A stretch of 64,000 nt of DNA from Thermodesulfomicrobium sp. WS. GTDB taxonomy: Bacteria; Desulfobacterota; Desulfovibrionia; Desulfovibrionales; Desulfomicrobiaceae. The notes beneath the pieces were generated by a model, which was given only the letters and a program-made list of their open reading frames with translations, was not told the origin of the DNA and searched no databases. Shown one piece after another: positions 18,623 to 23,864 of the stretch; the stretch's first letter is position 1; every line of letters begins with the position of its first letter. The stretch covers positions 1,302,001 to 1,366,000 of the forward strand of contig NZ_AP027130.1 in the NCBI RefSeq assembly GCF_027925145.1. Reading direction: 5' to 3'. A program made the translations under genes and the position numbers.

Positions 18623-19165
18623 ATGCGAGCAAAACTGCTGGGGATTGGATTGGGGATGGCGGTGGTGCTGTGGAGTGCGGCTTGGGCGCAAGGTCCGTTG
18701 ACGTCAAGCCAGGTGGAGCGCTTCGTGCGATCCTACGAGGAACTCAAGCCGGTCTTCGATGCCATGGAAGGAGAAGGCAGCCCGGAGGAAGAGAGCCCGG
18801 CGGCATTGGCGGCGCAGTGGGGCAAAGCGGTGATGCGCGACGCCAAGGCGCAGGCCGTGCTCGCCAAAAACGGCCTGGACGCCGCGTCCTGGGCGGACCT
18901 CGCCTCGCGGGTGATGAGCACTTACATGGTGCTCAAGATGAGCGAGGGCGGGGATTCTCCGCTTGTCCAGCTTCGGCAAAGCCTGGCGGAATTGGAAAAG
19001 GACACGTCGATCCCGGCATCCATGAAGCCGGAGATGGTCGCCAATCTTCGCCAGAGCATCGCCCAGTACGAGACCATGGAAAAGAACGTCTCCGACCAAG
19101 ACAAGGCTGCGGTGCGGCCGTTGCTTCCTCGTTTGGATGCCGTCTTGGAGTGGACGGATCAGTAG
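18623..19165 (+). CDS. Secreted protein of unknown function
   Basis: The 180-residue product starts with a clear Sec signal peptide ([17 protein letters not shown], cleavage likely after AWA). The mature part of about 157 residues is helical and charged, with no Cys and no motif I recognise. Most likely periplasmic. The ATG has GAAAGAG just upstream. It diverges from gcvH with about 110 bases between them, and its 3' end overlaps the convergent rlmH by 7 bases. The frame is supported by the signal peptide and composition; the function is unknown. Confidence 0.75.
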
Positions 19166-19617
19166 TGGTAGGCCACCCCTGCCAAAATGGTGCTTGCCCG
19201 GTAGAGTTGCTCCAGAAGCACCACCAGGGCCAGCTCGTGCGGCAGGGTCATGGGGCCAAGGCTCACCTGGTCCCAGGCAGCGTCAAGCAGCTGCGGCGTC
19301 AGGCCGAAAGGTCCGCCCACGGCAAAGCACGGGACAAGGCCTTTGTCCCAGAGTCCGCCCAAAAGGCGGGCGAATTCCGCCGAGGTGCGCGCTGGCCCGG
19401 CATCGTGCAGGACAAGGAGCCGGTGGCGGGGCGTGATTTGGCTCAGGATACGGCGTGCTTCTTCTTCGCGGCAGCGGTCCCGCGGGCCGCGTCCCGGGGA
19501 AAGGGCGGTGAGGGTGAGGCGCAGGCGGGAGCGCAGACAGCGTTGGTAGTGATCTACCGCCTGCTGCCAGAAGGGTTTTTTGACCGAGCCAATGGTGAGG
19601 ACCGTGACGGGATGCAT
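19159..19617 (-). CDS. rlmH: 23S rRNA pseudouridine1915 N3-methyltransferase RlmH
   Basis: RlmH methylates pseudouridine 1915 of 23S rRNA on assembled ribosomes using S-adenosylmethionine. The 152 residues carry the SPOUT-fold signature at the C-terminus: FAVGGPFGL, then MTLPHELALVVLLEQLYRA and the terminal AYHY. Length matches the family. Its gene runs toward the secreted-protein gene and starts 52 bases from the divergent PilZ gene. Confidence 0.93.
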   Translation of the reverse strand: MHPVTVLTIGSVKKPFWQQAVDHYQRCLRSRLRLTLTALSPGRGPRDRCREEEARRILSQITPRHRLLVLHDAGPARTSAEFARLLGGLWDKGLVPCFAVGGPFGLTPQLLDAAWDQVSLGPMTLPHELALVVLLEQLYRASTILAGVAYHY

Positions 19618-19669: not shown

Positions 19670-20104
19670 ATGCACGAGCAGGATGTGGTGGAATCCTTGG
19701 TGAGGGTGGACGGAACCGAAGGCGACGAGCTGCTTTTTTGGGCTGAAGAGGAGCCGGTGGATGCCGTGCGCAGCACCTACCGCGTCCCTCTCGATGCGCA
19801 GGAGGCATGGCTGCGGTTGGGCGAGCAGTCCTGGCCGGTGCTCGATATTTCTCGCTGGGGGCTCGGGATTGCTCTCGAGGATGGGGCTCTCTTGGAGCCG
19901 GGCATGGTGCTCGAAGGGGCGCGGCTTGAAGTGGATGGGCGCACCCTGGCTGTGGATGTGGAGGTGGTGCACGTATCCGCGGACGTTGGGGAGCATTTGC
20001 GCTGCGGTCTTGCCGTGGTCCGGGCGGCCGAGGAGTTCGGGTCCTTTGTGGAGGAGTTCGTCACTCGGCGCAAGGCCCGGATCGTGGGGGAGGCGCACGC
20101 ATGA
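19670..20104 (+). CDS. PilZ-domain protein, probable c-di-GMP receptor
   Basis: The 144-residue protein carries the two PilZ signatures: RSTYR (RxxxR, near residue 34) and DISRWG (DxSxxG, near 59), which together bind cyclic di-GMP. The rest is a single beta-barrel domain with a short helical tail. A strong site GGAGGAGG precedes the ATG closely. It is the first gene of a run in which the next two genes each overlap the previous one by 4 bases (ATGA), so its output probably concerns the RHH and ParA-like partners. Confidence 0.85.
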   Translation: MHEQDVVESLVRVDGTEGDELLFWAEEEPVDAVRSTYRVPLDAQEAWLRLGEQSWPVLDISRWGLGIALEDGALLEPGMVLEGARLEVDGRTLAVDVEVVHVSADVGEHLRCGLAVVRAAEEFGSFVEEFVTRRKARIVGEAHA

Positions 20105-20466
20105 ATGCCGTCCGTCGAGATGTCCTGGGAGAGCTTTTCTCTGGAGAGGCGCATGAGACGGTGCAGGGTTTGGAAGAACTCAATGCCCTGATCCAGCAAT
20201 GCGCTGCCCCCCAGAAAGCGTCCATCGTAGCGCCGAAAAAGCGGTCTCAAAGCCGCTGCCGCGTCCGCAAGGCGACGCATTACCTGCGTCCAGAGGTGTA
20301 CGACCGGCTGGAGGCCGCAAGCCAGCGGTTGCGCGACGAGCTCGCCCCGGATGTGCGCGTTTCCAAATCGCGCCTCGTCAATCTGGCTTTGGCGCAGCTT
20401 TTGGAAGAAATCCGGCGCAAGGACGATCCGCGCGCCGTGGCCCGTCTTTTGGAGGAAAAATCATGA
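20101..20466 (+). CDS. Small ribbon-helix-helix-like protein partnered with ParA
   Basis: This 121-residue protein is not a family I can name exactly. The basic C-terminal half (from about residue 58) reads THYLRPEVYDRLEAA followed by VSKSRLVNLALAQLLEEI, which resembles a ribbon-helix-helix DNA-binding fold. The N-terminal half is acidic and helical, with a basic linker around residues 45-57. It overlaps the PilZ gene and the ParA-like gene by 4 bases each, so it is a candidate ParB-like adaptor for that ATPase. Confidence 0.7.
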   Translation: MNAVRRDVLGELFSGEAHETVQGLEELNALIQQCAAPQKASIVAPKKRSQSRCRVRKATHYLRPEVYDRLEAASQRLRDELAPDVRVSKSRLVNLALAQLLEEIRRKDDPRAVARLLEEKS

Positions 20467-21395
20467 CAACCGAACCCCTGCGCGTGGTGTGTCCGCGGTG
20501 TGGCAAGGAACACCGGGTGGATGTGTCCAAGATTCCTGCTGGCGCCACCAAGGCCCAATGCCGTGCCTGCGGCCATCGGTTTGCGCTTGCCGACAGTGCG
20601 CGGCCGTCGGATGCCCCCAAGGGACCGGGTCCGCGGCGTATCGGTGTGTGTTTGAGCAAAGGCGGAGTGGGCAAGACCACCACGGCCGTACACCTGGCCG
20701 CAGGACTTGCCTTGGCAGGCAATCGGGTCCTTTTGGTGGATACGGACACCCAGGGGCAGGATGCCTATTCGTTGGGGGTCAAGCCCAAGGCTGGGCTCAC
20801 GGAGCTCGTGACCGGAGAGCTTTCGGCGGACGAGGCGGTGGTCAAGGCGCGGGAGAATCTGTGGCTCCTTGCGGGCGGCCGCTCTCTGGCTGGGGTGAAG
20901 CGCCTCATCGACCGCAAGGATTTTGGTGGTGAGCTCACGTTGGCGGAGGCCCTGGAGCCGGTGGAGACGAGCTACGACTACGTGGTGGTAGATACCTCTC
21001 CGGGATGGGACCCCTTGACGGTCAATGTGCTCTTTTATGTCTATGAAGTGCTCACCCCGGTGAGCCTGGAAGTCATGACCCTGCAGGGCTTGGTGGAATT
21101 CTTGAAGAGCATGAGCGCTATCCAGAAGTACCGCAGCGAAGTGGCGCTCAAGTATATCCTACCCACGTTCTACGATAAGCGCGTCAAGAATCCCGATGTG
21201 ATCCTCAAGCGTTTGCAAGAGCTCTACGGCGACCTTGTGTGCGAGCCCGTCCGGTACAACGTGCGCCTTTCGGAGTGTCCGGCGTATGGCAAGACCGTGT
21301 ACGAATACGCGCCGGGTTCCCATGGGGCGCAGGACTACCGGGCCTTGGTGCGCAAGGTGACCGGCAATCCCAAGCTGTTTACCATGGGCGGGTGA
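20463..21395 (+). CDS. ParA/MinD-type ATPase with N-terminal zinc ribbon
   Basis: The 310 residues begin with a zinc ribbon of the MJ0042 type (CPRCGKEH then CRACGHRF, residues 10-37), followed by a ParA core with the deviant Walker A KGGVGKTTT near 65, the DTDTQGQD switch near 93 and the VVVDTSPGWD box near 175. Such ATPases position DNA, chemosensory arrays, pili or other cargo. A zinc ribbon fused to ParA is unusual and suggests a specific partner. The ATG at 20463 overlaps the previous stop and follows GGAGG. It overlaps the next glycosyltransferase gene by 4 bases. Confidence 0.88.
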   Translation: MTTEPLRVVCPRCGKEHRVDVSKIPAGATKAQCRACGHRFALADSARPSDAPKGPGPRRIGVCLSKGGVGKTTTAVHLAAGLALAGNRVLLVDTDTQGQDAYSLGVKPKAGLTELVTGELSADEAVVKARENLWLLAGGRSLAGVKRLIDRKDFGGELTLAEALEPVETSYDYVVVDTSPGWDPLTVNVLFYVYEVLTPVSLEVMTLQGLVEFLKSMSAIQKYRSEVALKYILPTFYDKRVKNPDVILKRLQELYGDLVCEPVRYNVRLSECPAYGKTVYEYAPGSHGAQDYRALVRKVTGNPKLFTMGG

Positions 21396-22600
21396 GGGTG
21401 GCGCAGCCCTCGGTGGTCTTCCAGCTCGCCCGGTTCGGCGATATCCTGCAAACCGGGCGCTTGATGGCGAGCCTGCCGCCGGGAGCGGTGCTCGTGGTGG
21501 ATCGTGACTTGGCAGAGCTCGCCCGCCTTGCGTACCCTCAAGCCCAGGTGCTGGAGCTGCCGGTGCACGGCAAACGCCCCGGAGCATGGTCGTTGGTGCG
21601 CCGTGCGGTGGCCACGATGCAGTCTCTCGATCCTGCTGAAGTTTATCTACTCAATTATTCTGGACTTTCTGCGGCCTTGGCCGCGGCCTTTGCTGCGGAG
21701 CGCCTGCGCGGTTACGGCGGTGTGGGGGGGAGTCTGCGCGTGCCCCCATGGTTTTCGCTCCTCATTCGCTGGTCCCAGGAGCGCCGAAGCGCTGGCCTCA
21801 ATCTGGTGGACGCCTGGGGGCTTCTTGCCCGGGAGCCGGCCGCGCCCGCTACGGTCCATCCTCCGGCGCAGCCGCGGGGGCGCACGCTGGGGGTGGTGCT
21901 TGCCGGGCAGCATCCACGGCGCTCGCTGCCGGCCTCGGTACTCGCCGCCTGGATCGGCGCGGCCCTGAGCCGCCTTGGCGGGGCGGACGTGGTGCTGCTC
22001 GGCGCTCCGGGCCAGGAGCGTTTGGCGGCGGAACTCATGGCCGCGCTGCCTGCGGCCCTTGGCCGCTCCACCCGCAACCTCGTGGGGCAGACCGGTTGGC
22101 GGCAGTTGTGGGCGACTGTGGCAGAATGCGGCCTGGTGCTTTCACCGGACACGGGTGTGGCCCATATGGCGGCCCGGTTGGGGGTGCCGGTCTTGGGGGC
22201 GTATTTGGCCTCGGCGTGGGTGCATGAGACCGGCCCCTACGGGGAAGGACACGTGGTGCTGCAATCGGTGCTTCCCTGTGCACCGTGCCTGGAGACCGCG
22301 GCCTGTCCCACGCCGGGGGCGTGCCTGGCGCCGCTTGCACAGCGGGAGACGATCCGCTGGATTGCCCGGGGCGAGGGGGCGCTGCCTGCGGGTGTCGTGG
22401 CCCTGCAAAGCGGCATGGATGCCTTGGGCGTGTGCTACCAGCCGGTGGCTGGAGAAGACCCCACTGCGGCCGGACGTCAGGCATTTCGCGCCCAGGTGGC
22501 GGCCGTATGGGGCCTGGGGGCGCCTGGATCAGGAGGCCATGCGTGGATGACGGAAAAAGACTGGATGCTGCCTGGGGTGGTGGGAGGTCTGTATGACTGA
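21392..22600 (+). CDS. Glycosyltransferase family 9 (heptosyltransferase-like)
   Basis: The 402-residue protein begins VFQLARFGDILQTGRLMASL, the GT9 N-terminal signature, and contains LVGQTGWRQLWATVAECGLV followed by SPDTGVAHMAARLGVPVLG, the nucleotide-sugar binding region of ADP-heptose-type transferases. A Cys cluster (CAPCLETAACPTPGAC) follows, also common in this family. The GTG at 21392 overlaps the ParA stop as GTGA; a second GTG two codons later is possible. The acceptor is unknown; lipopolysaccharide core or flagellin glycan are both possible. Confidence 0.85.
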   Translation: MRVAQPSVVFQLARFGDILQTGRLMASLPPGAVLVVDRDLAELARLAYPQAQVLELPVHGKRPGAWSLVRRAVATMQSLDPAEVYLLNYSGLSAALAAAFAAERLRGYGGVGGSLRVPPWFSLLIRWSQERRSAGLNLVDAWGLLAREPAAPATVHPPAQPRGRTLGVVLAGQHPRRSLPASVLAAWIGAALSRLGGADVVLLGAPGQERLAAELMAALPAALGRSTRNLVGQTGWRQLWATVAECGLVLSPDTGVAHMAARLGVPVLGAYLASAWVHETGPYGEGHVVLQSVLPCAPCLETAACPTPGACLAPLAQRETIRWIARGEGALPAGVVALQSGMDALGVCYQPVAGEDPTAAGRQAFRAQVAAVWGLGAPGSGGHAWMTEKDWMLPGVVGGLYD

Positions 22601-23864
22601 TTGGGGGGTGCGCCGGATCCTGGTGGTGCTGCCGCTTTACGGCGGCTCGCTTCCCGTGGGCCGCGCTGTGGCCCGGGCCTTGGCGGGGCTGGGGCACGTG
22701 GTGGAGACCTTTGAGGCGCCGCTTTTCTATCCCACTTTTCAAAATCTGCGGGCGCTGCGTGTGGGCCCGGAGGCGGTGGACGCCCTGGAGAACGGATTTT
22801 TGCAGCTCGTCTCCCAGGCGGTGCTTGCCCAGGTGGAGCGCTTTTCGCCGGACCTGGTGCTGGCCATGGCGCAGGCACCGCTTTCCCGGCAGGCCTTGCG
22901 GCGCCTTGCCCGAGACGGGGTCCCGACGGCCATGTGGTTCGTGGAGGACTATGCCGTCTTTACCTATTGGCAGGCCTTTGCCCCGCTCTATGACTTTTTT
23001 TTCACCATCCAGAAGGAGCCGTTTCTGGAACGGCTGGCCGAAGTCGGCCAGAAGCGGGCCTCCTATCTCCCCTTGGCCGCGGATCCCGAAATCCATCGGC
23101 CAGTGCCACTCACCCCGGTGGAGCGGCGTACCTACGGCAGTGATGTCTCCTTCGTCGGCGCGGGGTATCCCAACCGGCGGCTGGCCTTTCGGGCCTTTGC
23201 GGACATGGATTTTCGCATTTGGGGCAGCGACTGGGACGGTGAGGAGATCCTGGCCCCGTACGTGCAGCGCGGTGGAGCGCGCATCGAGACCGAAGAGGCG
23301 GTGAAGATCTTCTGCGCTACCCGCGTCAATCTCAACCTGCACTCCAGCGTGCGGCCTGCGGTGACCGTGGGGGATGGCGATTTCGTCAATCCGCGCACCT
23401 TTGAGATCGCCGCCTGTGGGGCCTTTCAGGTGGTGGACCGACGAGCGCTCTTGGCCGAGCTTTTTGCCGATCAGGAGCTGGCGGTGGTGGACCATCTGGA
23501 TGCCATGGTGGAGGCAACCCGGTATTTTCTCGCCCACGAAGAGGAGCGCACCGCCATGGCGGCGCGGGCCAGGGCGCGCGTGCTTGCCGAACACACCTAC
23601 CCACAGCGCATGGAAACGCTCCTTGCTGTGGTGGGCGCGGCCTTGGGGTGGCGCAAGGCGGAGGCACACCCTTCCTTTGTGGAGCCGGATTTGGCGGCCG
23701 AGGTGACTGCCCTTGCCAGAAACCTAGGTTTGCGGGATGATGCCTCTTTCGAGGACGTGGTGGCCGCGGTTCGGGCCCGCGAGGGGACCCTCTCGGCCGT
23801 GGAGACCGCGGTGCTTTTTTTGGATGAATGGCGCAAACAGTATCGCCGCAAGGGCGCGGCGTAA
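22593..23864 (+). CDS. CgeB-like glycosyltransferase
   Basis: The 423-residue protein resembles the CgeB/DUF3880 group of GT-B glycosyltransferases: ILVVLPLYGGSLPVGRAVAR at the N-terminus, AMWFVEDYAVFTYWQAF, then FVGAGYPNRRLAF and the nucleotide-sugar region NPRTFEIAACGAFQVVDRR. The last 60 residues are helical and basic. It overlaps the GT9 gene by 8 bases, so the two transferases probably act in one pathway. Donor and acceptor are unknown. Confidence 0.82.
   Translation: MTDWGVRRILVVLPLYGGSLPVGRAVARALAGLGHVVETFEAPLFYPTFQNLRALRVGPEAVDALENGFLQLVSQAVLAQVERFSPDLVLAMAQAPLSRQALRRLARDGVPTAMWFVEDYAVFTYWQAFAPLYDFFFTIQKEPFLERLAEVGQKRASYLPLAADPEIHRPVPLTPVERRTYGSDVSFVGAGYPNRRLAFRAFADMDFRIWGSDWDGEEILAPYVQRGGARIETEEAVKIFCATRVNLNLHSSVRPAVTVGDGDFVNPRTFEIAACGAFQVVDRRALLAELFADQELAVVDHLDAMVEATRYFLAHEEERTAMAARARARVLAEHTYPQRMETLLAVVGAALGWRKAEAHPSFVEPDLAAEVTALARNLGLRDDASFEDVVAAVRAREGTLSAVETAVLFLDEWRKQYRRKGAA

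Follow-up and report, generated by a model that had tools for sequence, protein, structure and literature searches.

The window analysed here, a stretch of 64,000 nucleotides from Thermodesulfomicrobium sp. WS (contig NZ_AP027130.1, positions 1,302,001 to 1,366,000), lies on a complete chromosome of 2.36 Mb (G000) and carries, at window positions 19670-23864 of the forward strand, five consecutive genes. They encode a PilZ-domain protein, a small protein with a ribbon-helix-helix (RHH)-like domain, a ParA-type ATPase with an N-terminal zinc ribbon (ZR-ParA), a GT9 glycosyltransferase and a CgeB-like glycosyltransferase. Judged by comparison of sequences and gene orders, PilZ, RHH and ParA constitute a real and portable module, with a gene order that is retained in several families and in two classes or more. 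On balance, and with moderate confidence, we regard this trio as a self-contained chromosomal positioning module, which would be akin to the ParA/RHH partition pairs of plasmids and wired to cyclic di-GMP (c-di-GMP). In the sequences, this reading has its basis in the conserved trio and its order, the intact motifs, the kinship with plasmid ParAs and their partners, and the independence from the glycosyltransferases; we infer the docking role of a peptide, DNA as the cargo, the gating by c-di-GMP and the direction of the switch. A search of the literature found no paper describing a PilZ-RHH-ParA unit.

The trio was traced through 150 genomes of the order, which were sampled by species and are partly drafts, with cut-offs of >320 bits for ZR-ParA orthologues and E<1e-14 for the RHH profile. 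ZR-ParA orthologues occur at 31 loci in 30 of these genomes. Matches of the RHH profile fall in precisely the same 30 genomes, where it has to be noted that the profile was built from most of these rows themselves, several rows being independent of it. A match of the PilZ profile adjoins a ParA gene in 25 of the 30; the profile has a further match in G073. The complete trio, always in one fixed order, is present in 24 of the 150 genomes, a decayed form in G051 included. The five ZR-ParA genomes without PilZ make up genus g21, which has kept RHH and a ParA whose ribbon is followed by a longer linker. G092 carries two copies: PilZ adjoins one ParA, while RHH and an EAL-CBS-GGDEF protein adjoin the other, the EAL-CBS-GGDEF gene (L075, 8558-11014) being located directly upstream of the RHH-ParA pair.

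Beyond the order, complete trios were found in the families f69, f76, f82 and f96. In the class of G290, the ParA was detected in 62 of 219 genomes, and a strict pattern finds PilZ and RHH upstream of ParA at 21 of the 30 best loci. A scan of the contigs of the genome collection with generic ParA peptides returned mostly unrelated ParAs; the exceptions are L083 and L084, from metagenome-assembled genomes labelled Pseudomonadota, which combine PilZ, a variant middle protein and ZR-ParA. The genes downstream of the trio vary between families, and therefore the trio itself is the unit. An earlier reading of the window, made from its sequence alone (here the sequence-only reading), had proposed that PilZ, RHH and ParA belong together and that genomes be searched for the triple. 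This proposal is in good agreement with the survey, both within the order and in the further families.

Some variants of the trio were seen along the way. In G073 (L291, 8120-11362), RHH and ParA are missing between the retained PilZ and TopB, which are now approximately 370 bases apart, a case of partial trio loss. The RHH partner of G047 is fused to an N-terminal GAF domain (L069, 7304-8263), and L176 (G401:C37) is a second ZR-ParA on a long branch, with the altered Walker A motif NKVGMGKTS.

The two glycosyltransferases have a different history. The heptosyltransferase-like GT9 protein (21392..22600; PF01075, E=7e-13) and the CgeB-like protein (22593..23864; PF13524, E=9e-39, plus DUF3880) were assigned to the trio by the sequence-only reading, according to which all five genes form one c-di-GMP-controlled unit for surface glycosylation or motility. 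The overlaps in the window and the identical order in G067 and G070 speak for such a unit: in the window's genus (G000, G067 and G070), RlmH on the reverse strand is followed by PilZ, RHH, ParA, GT9 and CgeB, and then, where the contig reaches, by Psd, PssA and leu genes. Outside this genus, neither GT9 nor CgeB was found beside the trio, be it in the rest of the family or in other families of the order. In the genomes of genus g3, which we take to be Desulfomicrobium (hereafter Desulfomicrobium-type), the genes next after ParA are usually those of topoisomerase III and an HD-domain response regulator. Two complete genomes of this type, G024 and G039, carry a separate block GT9-CgeB-Psd-PssA-LeuA-LeuC-LeuD, at a distance of 568 kb and about 350 kb from the trio, respectively. 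A CgeB gene is present in 117 of the 150 genomes of the order, the majority of them without the trio, and none was found in four trio-bearing genomes of family f3 (G008, G013, G023 and G047). Since GT9-CgeB and the trio are separately conserved, the proposed glycosylation link is best described as a local junction: the glycosyltransferases are, in terms of synteny, not part of the trio, and the window joins two conserved clusters. A stable linkage, as in a glycosylation operon with GT9 and CgeB, is ruled out by synteny, and with separate clusters everywhere else examined we consider the five-gene unit very improbable. What stands of the earlier proposal is the ParA ATPase under a c-di-GMP receptor, for which the conserved trio and the c-di-GMP motifs argue; a connection with glycosylation or with the modification of the surface is not supported by the synteny.

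The PilZ-domain protein (19670..20104, 144 aa) carries the motifs RSTYR and DISRWG. The former is the RxxxR motif for c-di-GMP (R34-R38, 19769..19783), the latter the second motif (D/N)xSxxG (19844..19861). The 21 aligned orthologues all have both arginines and the final glycine of the second motif. The Pfam model PF07238 is matched right at its threshold, with 22.2 bits in the protein scan and 22.6 in another scan at a cut-off of 22.5. The AlphaFold model is a beta-barrel, and its best structural matches are MotI and the c-di-GMP-bound YcgR (E about 2e-5). With c-di-GMP motifs and predicted fold both kept, the protein is likely a c-di-GMP sensor.

The ParA-type ATPase (20463..21395, 310 aa) matches AAA_31 (E=1e-32) and, at its N-terminus, the zinc ribbon PF13717 (E=8e-11). 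The four cysteines of this MJ0042-type ribbon (Cys10/13/33/36, 20490..20570) are invariant in 13 aligned orthologues, as is the deviant Walker A motif KGGVGKTT (20658..20681) among the aligned trio ParAs. In a tree of 48 ParAs, whose output flags long branches, the trio ParAs cluster with ParAs of plasmids and mobile elements and are split from the Soj type with a support of 100/99. The closest plasmid ParAs, each followed by a small gene, share 53% identity (Rhabdochlamydia) and 46% identity (paDPRO, a plasmid of Pseudodesulfovibrio profundus with 42,836 bases). These plasmid relatives lack the zinc ribbon, and PilZ was likewise not seen in plasmid forms. The Soj and ParB genes of G000 are located elsewhere, at 288-290 kb, with the sole ParB_N gene at 289 kb; no ParB was found beside the trio ParA. 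From the sequence comparison, the ParA/RHH pair of the trio is akin to plasmid-type ParA and partner.

This partner, the middle protein of the trio (20101..20466, 121 aa), has its RHH-like domain at the C-terminus. Pfam yields RHH_3 with E=0.005, below the cut-off, so that the RHH call of the sequence-only reading is weak by this measure; its calls of PilZ, zinc-ribbon ParA, GT9 and CgeB-like were all upheld by Pfam matches. A model derived from 25 RHH orthologues has the expected strand-like segment followed by two core helices, which corresponds to the RKATHYL strand and two helices at 20257..20415 in the window. A Foldseek search with the RHH model ranks RHH domains of TraM at the top, without significance, and the RHH profile finds weak matches only in the PDB (TTHA0139, E=0.02; FimV, E=0.26), with no CdbA-like entry among them. 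In hhalign, the partner encoded on paDPRO aligns to the trio RHH with 95% probability, and one partner from a Rhabdochlamydia plasmid with 88%. Because of the helix pattern of the model, the top-ranking TraM structures and the alignments with plasmid partners, we regard the small protein as a likely DNA-binding RHH protein.

Close to its N-terminus, the partner carries a short peptide, DVLGELF in the window (20119..20139), of the pattern D-[IV]-[LM]-x-x-[LIVA]-[LFM]. The pattern is present in 30 of 32 partners versus 0.1% of shuffled N-termini, and 27 of the 32 have a lysine or arginine no more than 5 residues ahead of it; most of these partners are homologous to each other, and hence the counts are not independent. 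A plasmid partner has this peptide too, as do the variant middle proteins of L083 and L084 and IstB-type ATPases of family f21. In the latter (L173-L175), a trio-like ParA without zinc ribbon is followed by an IstB-like ATPase which starts with the same peptide, PDIMGEAL. Since this short element persists on proteins that are otherwise different, it is probably a tail that docks on and activates ParA. A stimulation of the ATPase by such tails is known for ParG and ParF (PMC7308502). The shared peptide also offers an easy way to look for the partners of ParA proteins that appear as orphans.

Taken together, the positioning module that we favour could operate as follows. ATP-bound ParA would spread over the nucleoid, while the RHH dimer would bind its own DNA sites via the RHH core. 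The N-terminal D-[IV]-[LM] peptide of the RHH protein would dock on ParA and stimulate ATP hydrolysis, and the RHH-bound DNA or complex would thus move along the gradient of ParA, in the manner of ParG and ParF. Under the control of c-di-GMP, PilZ would permit or block positioning via contact with the RHH protein or the zinc ribbon of ParA. Several observations weigh against this reading. No centromere-like repeat array was found beside the operon in three trio loci, nor in the upstream region of the Desulfomicrobium type. Standard profiles give the RHH assignment little support, and the middle protein of L083 and L084 is without a clear RHH domain, so that DNA binding is perhaps not shared by all members. 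The serine of the second PilZ motif is often glycine or alanine in the class of G290. PilZ is absent in g21 with RHH and ParA retained, and consequently a c-di-GMP input is not indispensable. Finally, the genomes were sampled by species and are in part drafts.

A search for a conserved operator found none. Several genomes of the Desulfomicrobium type (L056 region) have a conserved, palindrome-like block, TTGATTTT-N4-AAAATCAA, between RlmH and PilZ. It is absent from the window and could be a promoter or an operator. A role in anti-phage defence was rejected, as PADLOC gave generic ATPase similarity only.

The strongest competitor of the DNA-positioning module is a system with a protein cargo, in which a complex for c-di-GMP signalling or motility would, via PilZ, be brought to the poles or to mid-cell by ParA and the small protein, the RHH-like domain serving as an adaptor. 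ParA systems often move protein cargo such as carboxysomes and chemotaxis clusters (PMC10241942). A second, unrelated PilZ gene of G000 overlaps a ParA gene by 4 bases (L080 7811-8979; G000:C1 about 2325810-2326978), and this in a chemotaxis operon of CheB, HEAT repeats, CheR, PilZ, ParA, CheW-like, CheY and CheA. Furthermore, a weakly CheC/CheX-like gene precedes the f82 trio, PilT- or pilin-like genes were noticed by eye near two trios, and some middle proteins are without a clear RHH domain. However, none of the motility or pilus genes recurs regularly beside the trio, and the RHH core is retained in nearly all trios and plasmid relatives; all in all, we hold a protein cargo to be somewhat unlikely. 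Less probable again is a vestigial or domesticated plasmid partition cassette, one that no longer positions anything and in which the RHH protein has become chiefly a repressor of its own operon. The kinship with plasmid ParA/RHH pairs would fit well, and so would the patchy distribution with its losses, the decayed copies in G051, and G073 without RHH and ParA beside the retained PilZ. It is difficult to reconcile with catalytic, zinc-ribbon and peptide motifs that are kept over two classes together with a fixed gene order, and with PilZ and zinc ribbon as additions unseen in plasmid forms. We therefore regard it as unlikely.

A further explanation arises from the position of the trio on the chromosome: it might assist in segregating or organising the terminus of replication near Xer/dif, comparable to MatP but driven by ParA. 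By GC skew, sampled from genome fragments, the trio of G000, G024 and G338 lies close to the terminus. In eight Desulfomicrobium-type genomes, a dif-like site lies 3.8-4.0 kb from the trio, with topoisomerase III in between and an Xer-type recombinase gene approximately 2 kb beyond. Elsewhere the distance is 45 kb (G381), 46 kb (G338), 56 kb (G290) and 151 kb (G000); it ranges from 45 to 66 kb across G338, G381, G290, G627 and G629, and is approximately 17 kb in G436, there to a dif-like site with one mismatch. Draft genomes can reveal near pairs only. Fisher tests give combined values of p=0.002 over 4 genomes and p=0.01 over 7, which are carried by the Desulfomicrobium-type genomes and come from non-independent genomes (G000 and G024 belong to one family). 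In G587, trio and dif are 1.1 Mb apart on one contig of 2.80 Mb, and a large distance from dif is also seen for the incomplete forms of G092, G078 and G094, and in g21. Terminus linkage as a general rule is thus ruled out by G587, g21 and G092, and stays a local observation in the Desulfomicrobium type, a lead. Moreover, dif is a hot spot of integration, which could place plasmid-derived genes there. A dedicated terminus system appears to us even slightly less probable than the vestigial cassette. Around the dif-like site itself (L056 3228 in G024, L296 9854 in G000, and other loci), genes for a DHH protein, an Xer-type recombinase, FolK and transaldolase form a conserved neighbourhood, which trio and topoisomerase III adjoin in the Desulfomicrobium type.

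As to the layout in the window, the five genes overlap successively by 4, 4, 4 and 8 bases, in agreement with the sequence-only reading. PilZ end and RHH start share an ATGA (20101), and the RHH/ParA junction likewise (20463). The ParA/GT9 overlap is GTGA, provided that GT9 starts at GTG 21392; an alternative GTG exists at 21398. CgeB starts at 22593 and GT9 ends at 22600. In Desulfomicrobium-type relatives the trio genes are spaced by approximately 12-25 bases, i.e., they do not overlap. Short gene overlaps are unremarkable by themselves; it is the conserved content and order of the trio that exceeds chance. The divergent neighbour of the trio is the SPOUT methyltransferase RlmH (19159..19617, reverse strand), an arrangement that most of the family shares, unlike the other families seen. 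Tail to tail with RlmH, with an overlap of 7 bases, lies an open reading frame of 180 aa (18623-19165) without a Pfam match, which has a 64% homologue in G067.

In a wider perspective, sulfate reducers of at least two classes would carry, beside ParABS, a second chromosomal ParA segregation system of plasmid-type descent, gated by c-di-GMP via a dedicated PilZ. The switch between motile and sessile life would then govern where the chromosome is positioned, or, in Desulfomicrobium, perhaps its dif region. We put this forward tentatively, as possible yet doubtful. c-di-GMP is known mainly for the control of motility and biofilms. If the idea is true, the PilZ-RHH-ParA unit makes a link between c-di-GMP and chromosome organisation testable in sulfate reducers, and the trio shows how a plasmid-type partition pair can come under the control of a second messenger.

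Among known systems, the ParF/ParG type (class Ib, e.g., TP228) and the pairs of paDPRO and Rhabdochlamydia likewise combine a Walker-type ParA with a small adjacent partner. A C-terminal RHH domain is likely for the partner in the trio as well, and its conserved N-terminal tail may hold the arginine-finger-like, ATPase-stimulating motif of the ParF/ParG type. There, parA precedes the partner gene and resides on a plasmid, whereas the trio is chromosomal and its RHH gene precedes ParA; the trio furthermore has a zinc ribbon on ParA, a PilZ gene in front and no repeat array seen near the operon. By analogy, the trio most likely works like ParF/ParG. We do not class it as a member, because gene order, chromosomal place and the missing nearby centromere array differ. 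With the chromosomal ParABS system (Soj/Spo0J/parS) it has the ParA ATPase in common, yet its ParA belongs to another clade and is without ParB. McdAB and the ParA systems of chemotaxis also pair a ParA with an adjoining partner gene for intracellular positioning, their cargo being the carboxysome or the chemoreceptor array. To our knowledge, these have no RHH partner or PilZ. The nearest precedent for c-di-GMP, with a documented direct line to chromosome organisation, is given by CdbA (RHH) and CdbS (PilZ) of Myxococcus xanthus, where an RHH DNA-binding protein and a PilZ receptor act on nucleoid organisation under c-di-GMP (PMC7156744, PMC10313047). In the neighbourhood of cdbS nothing is reported to be predicted for chromosome organisation or segregation, and no dedicated ParA partner is described there. 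CdbA itself binds c-di-GMP and is a small stand-alone RHH protein of 67 aa, whereas the RHH protein of the trio has 121 aa and a conserved N-terminal tail.

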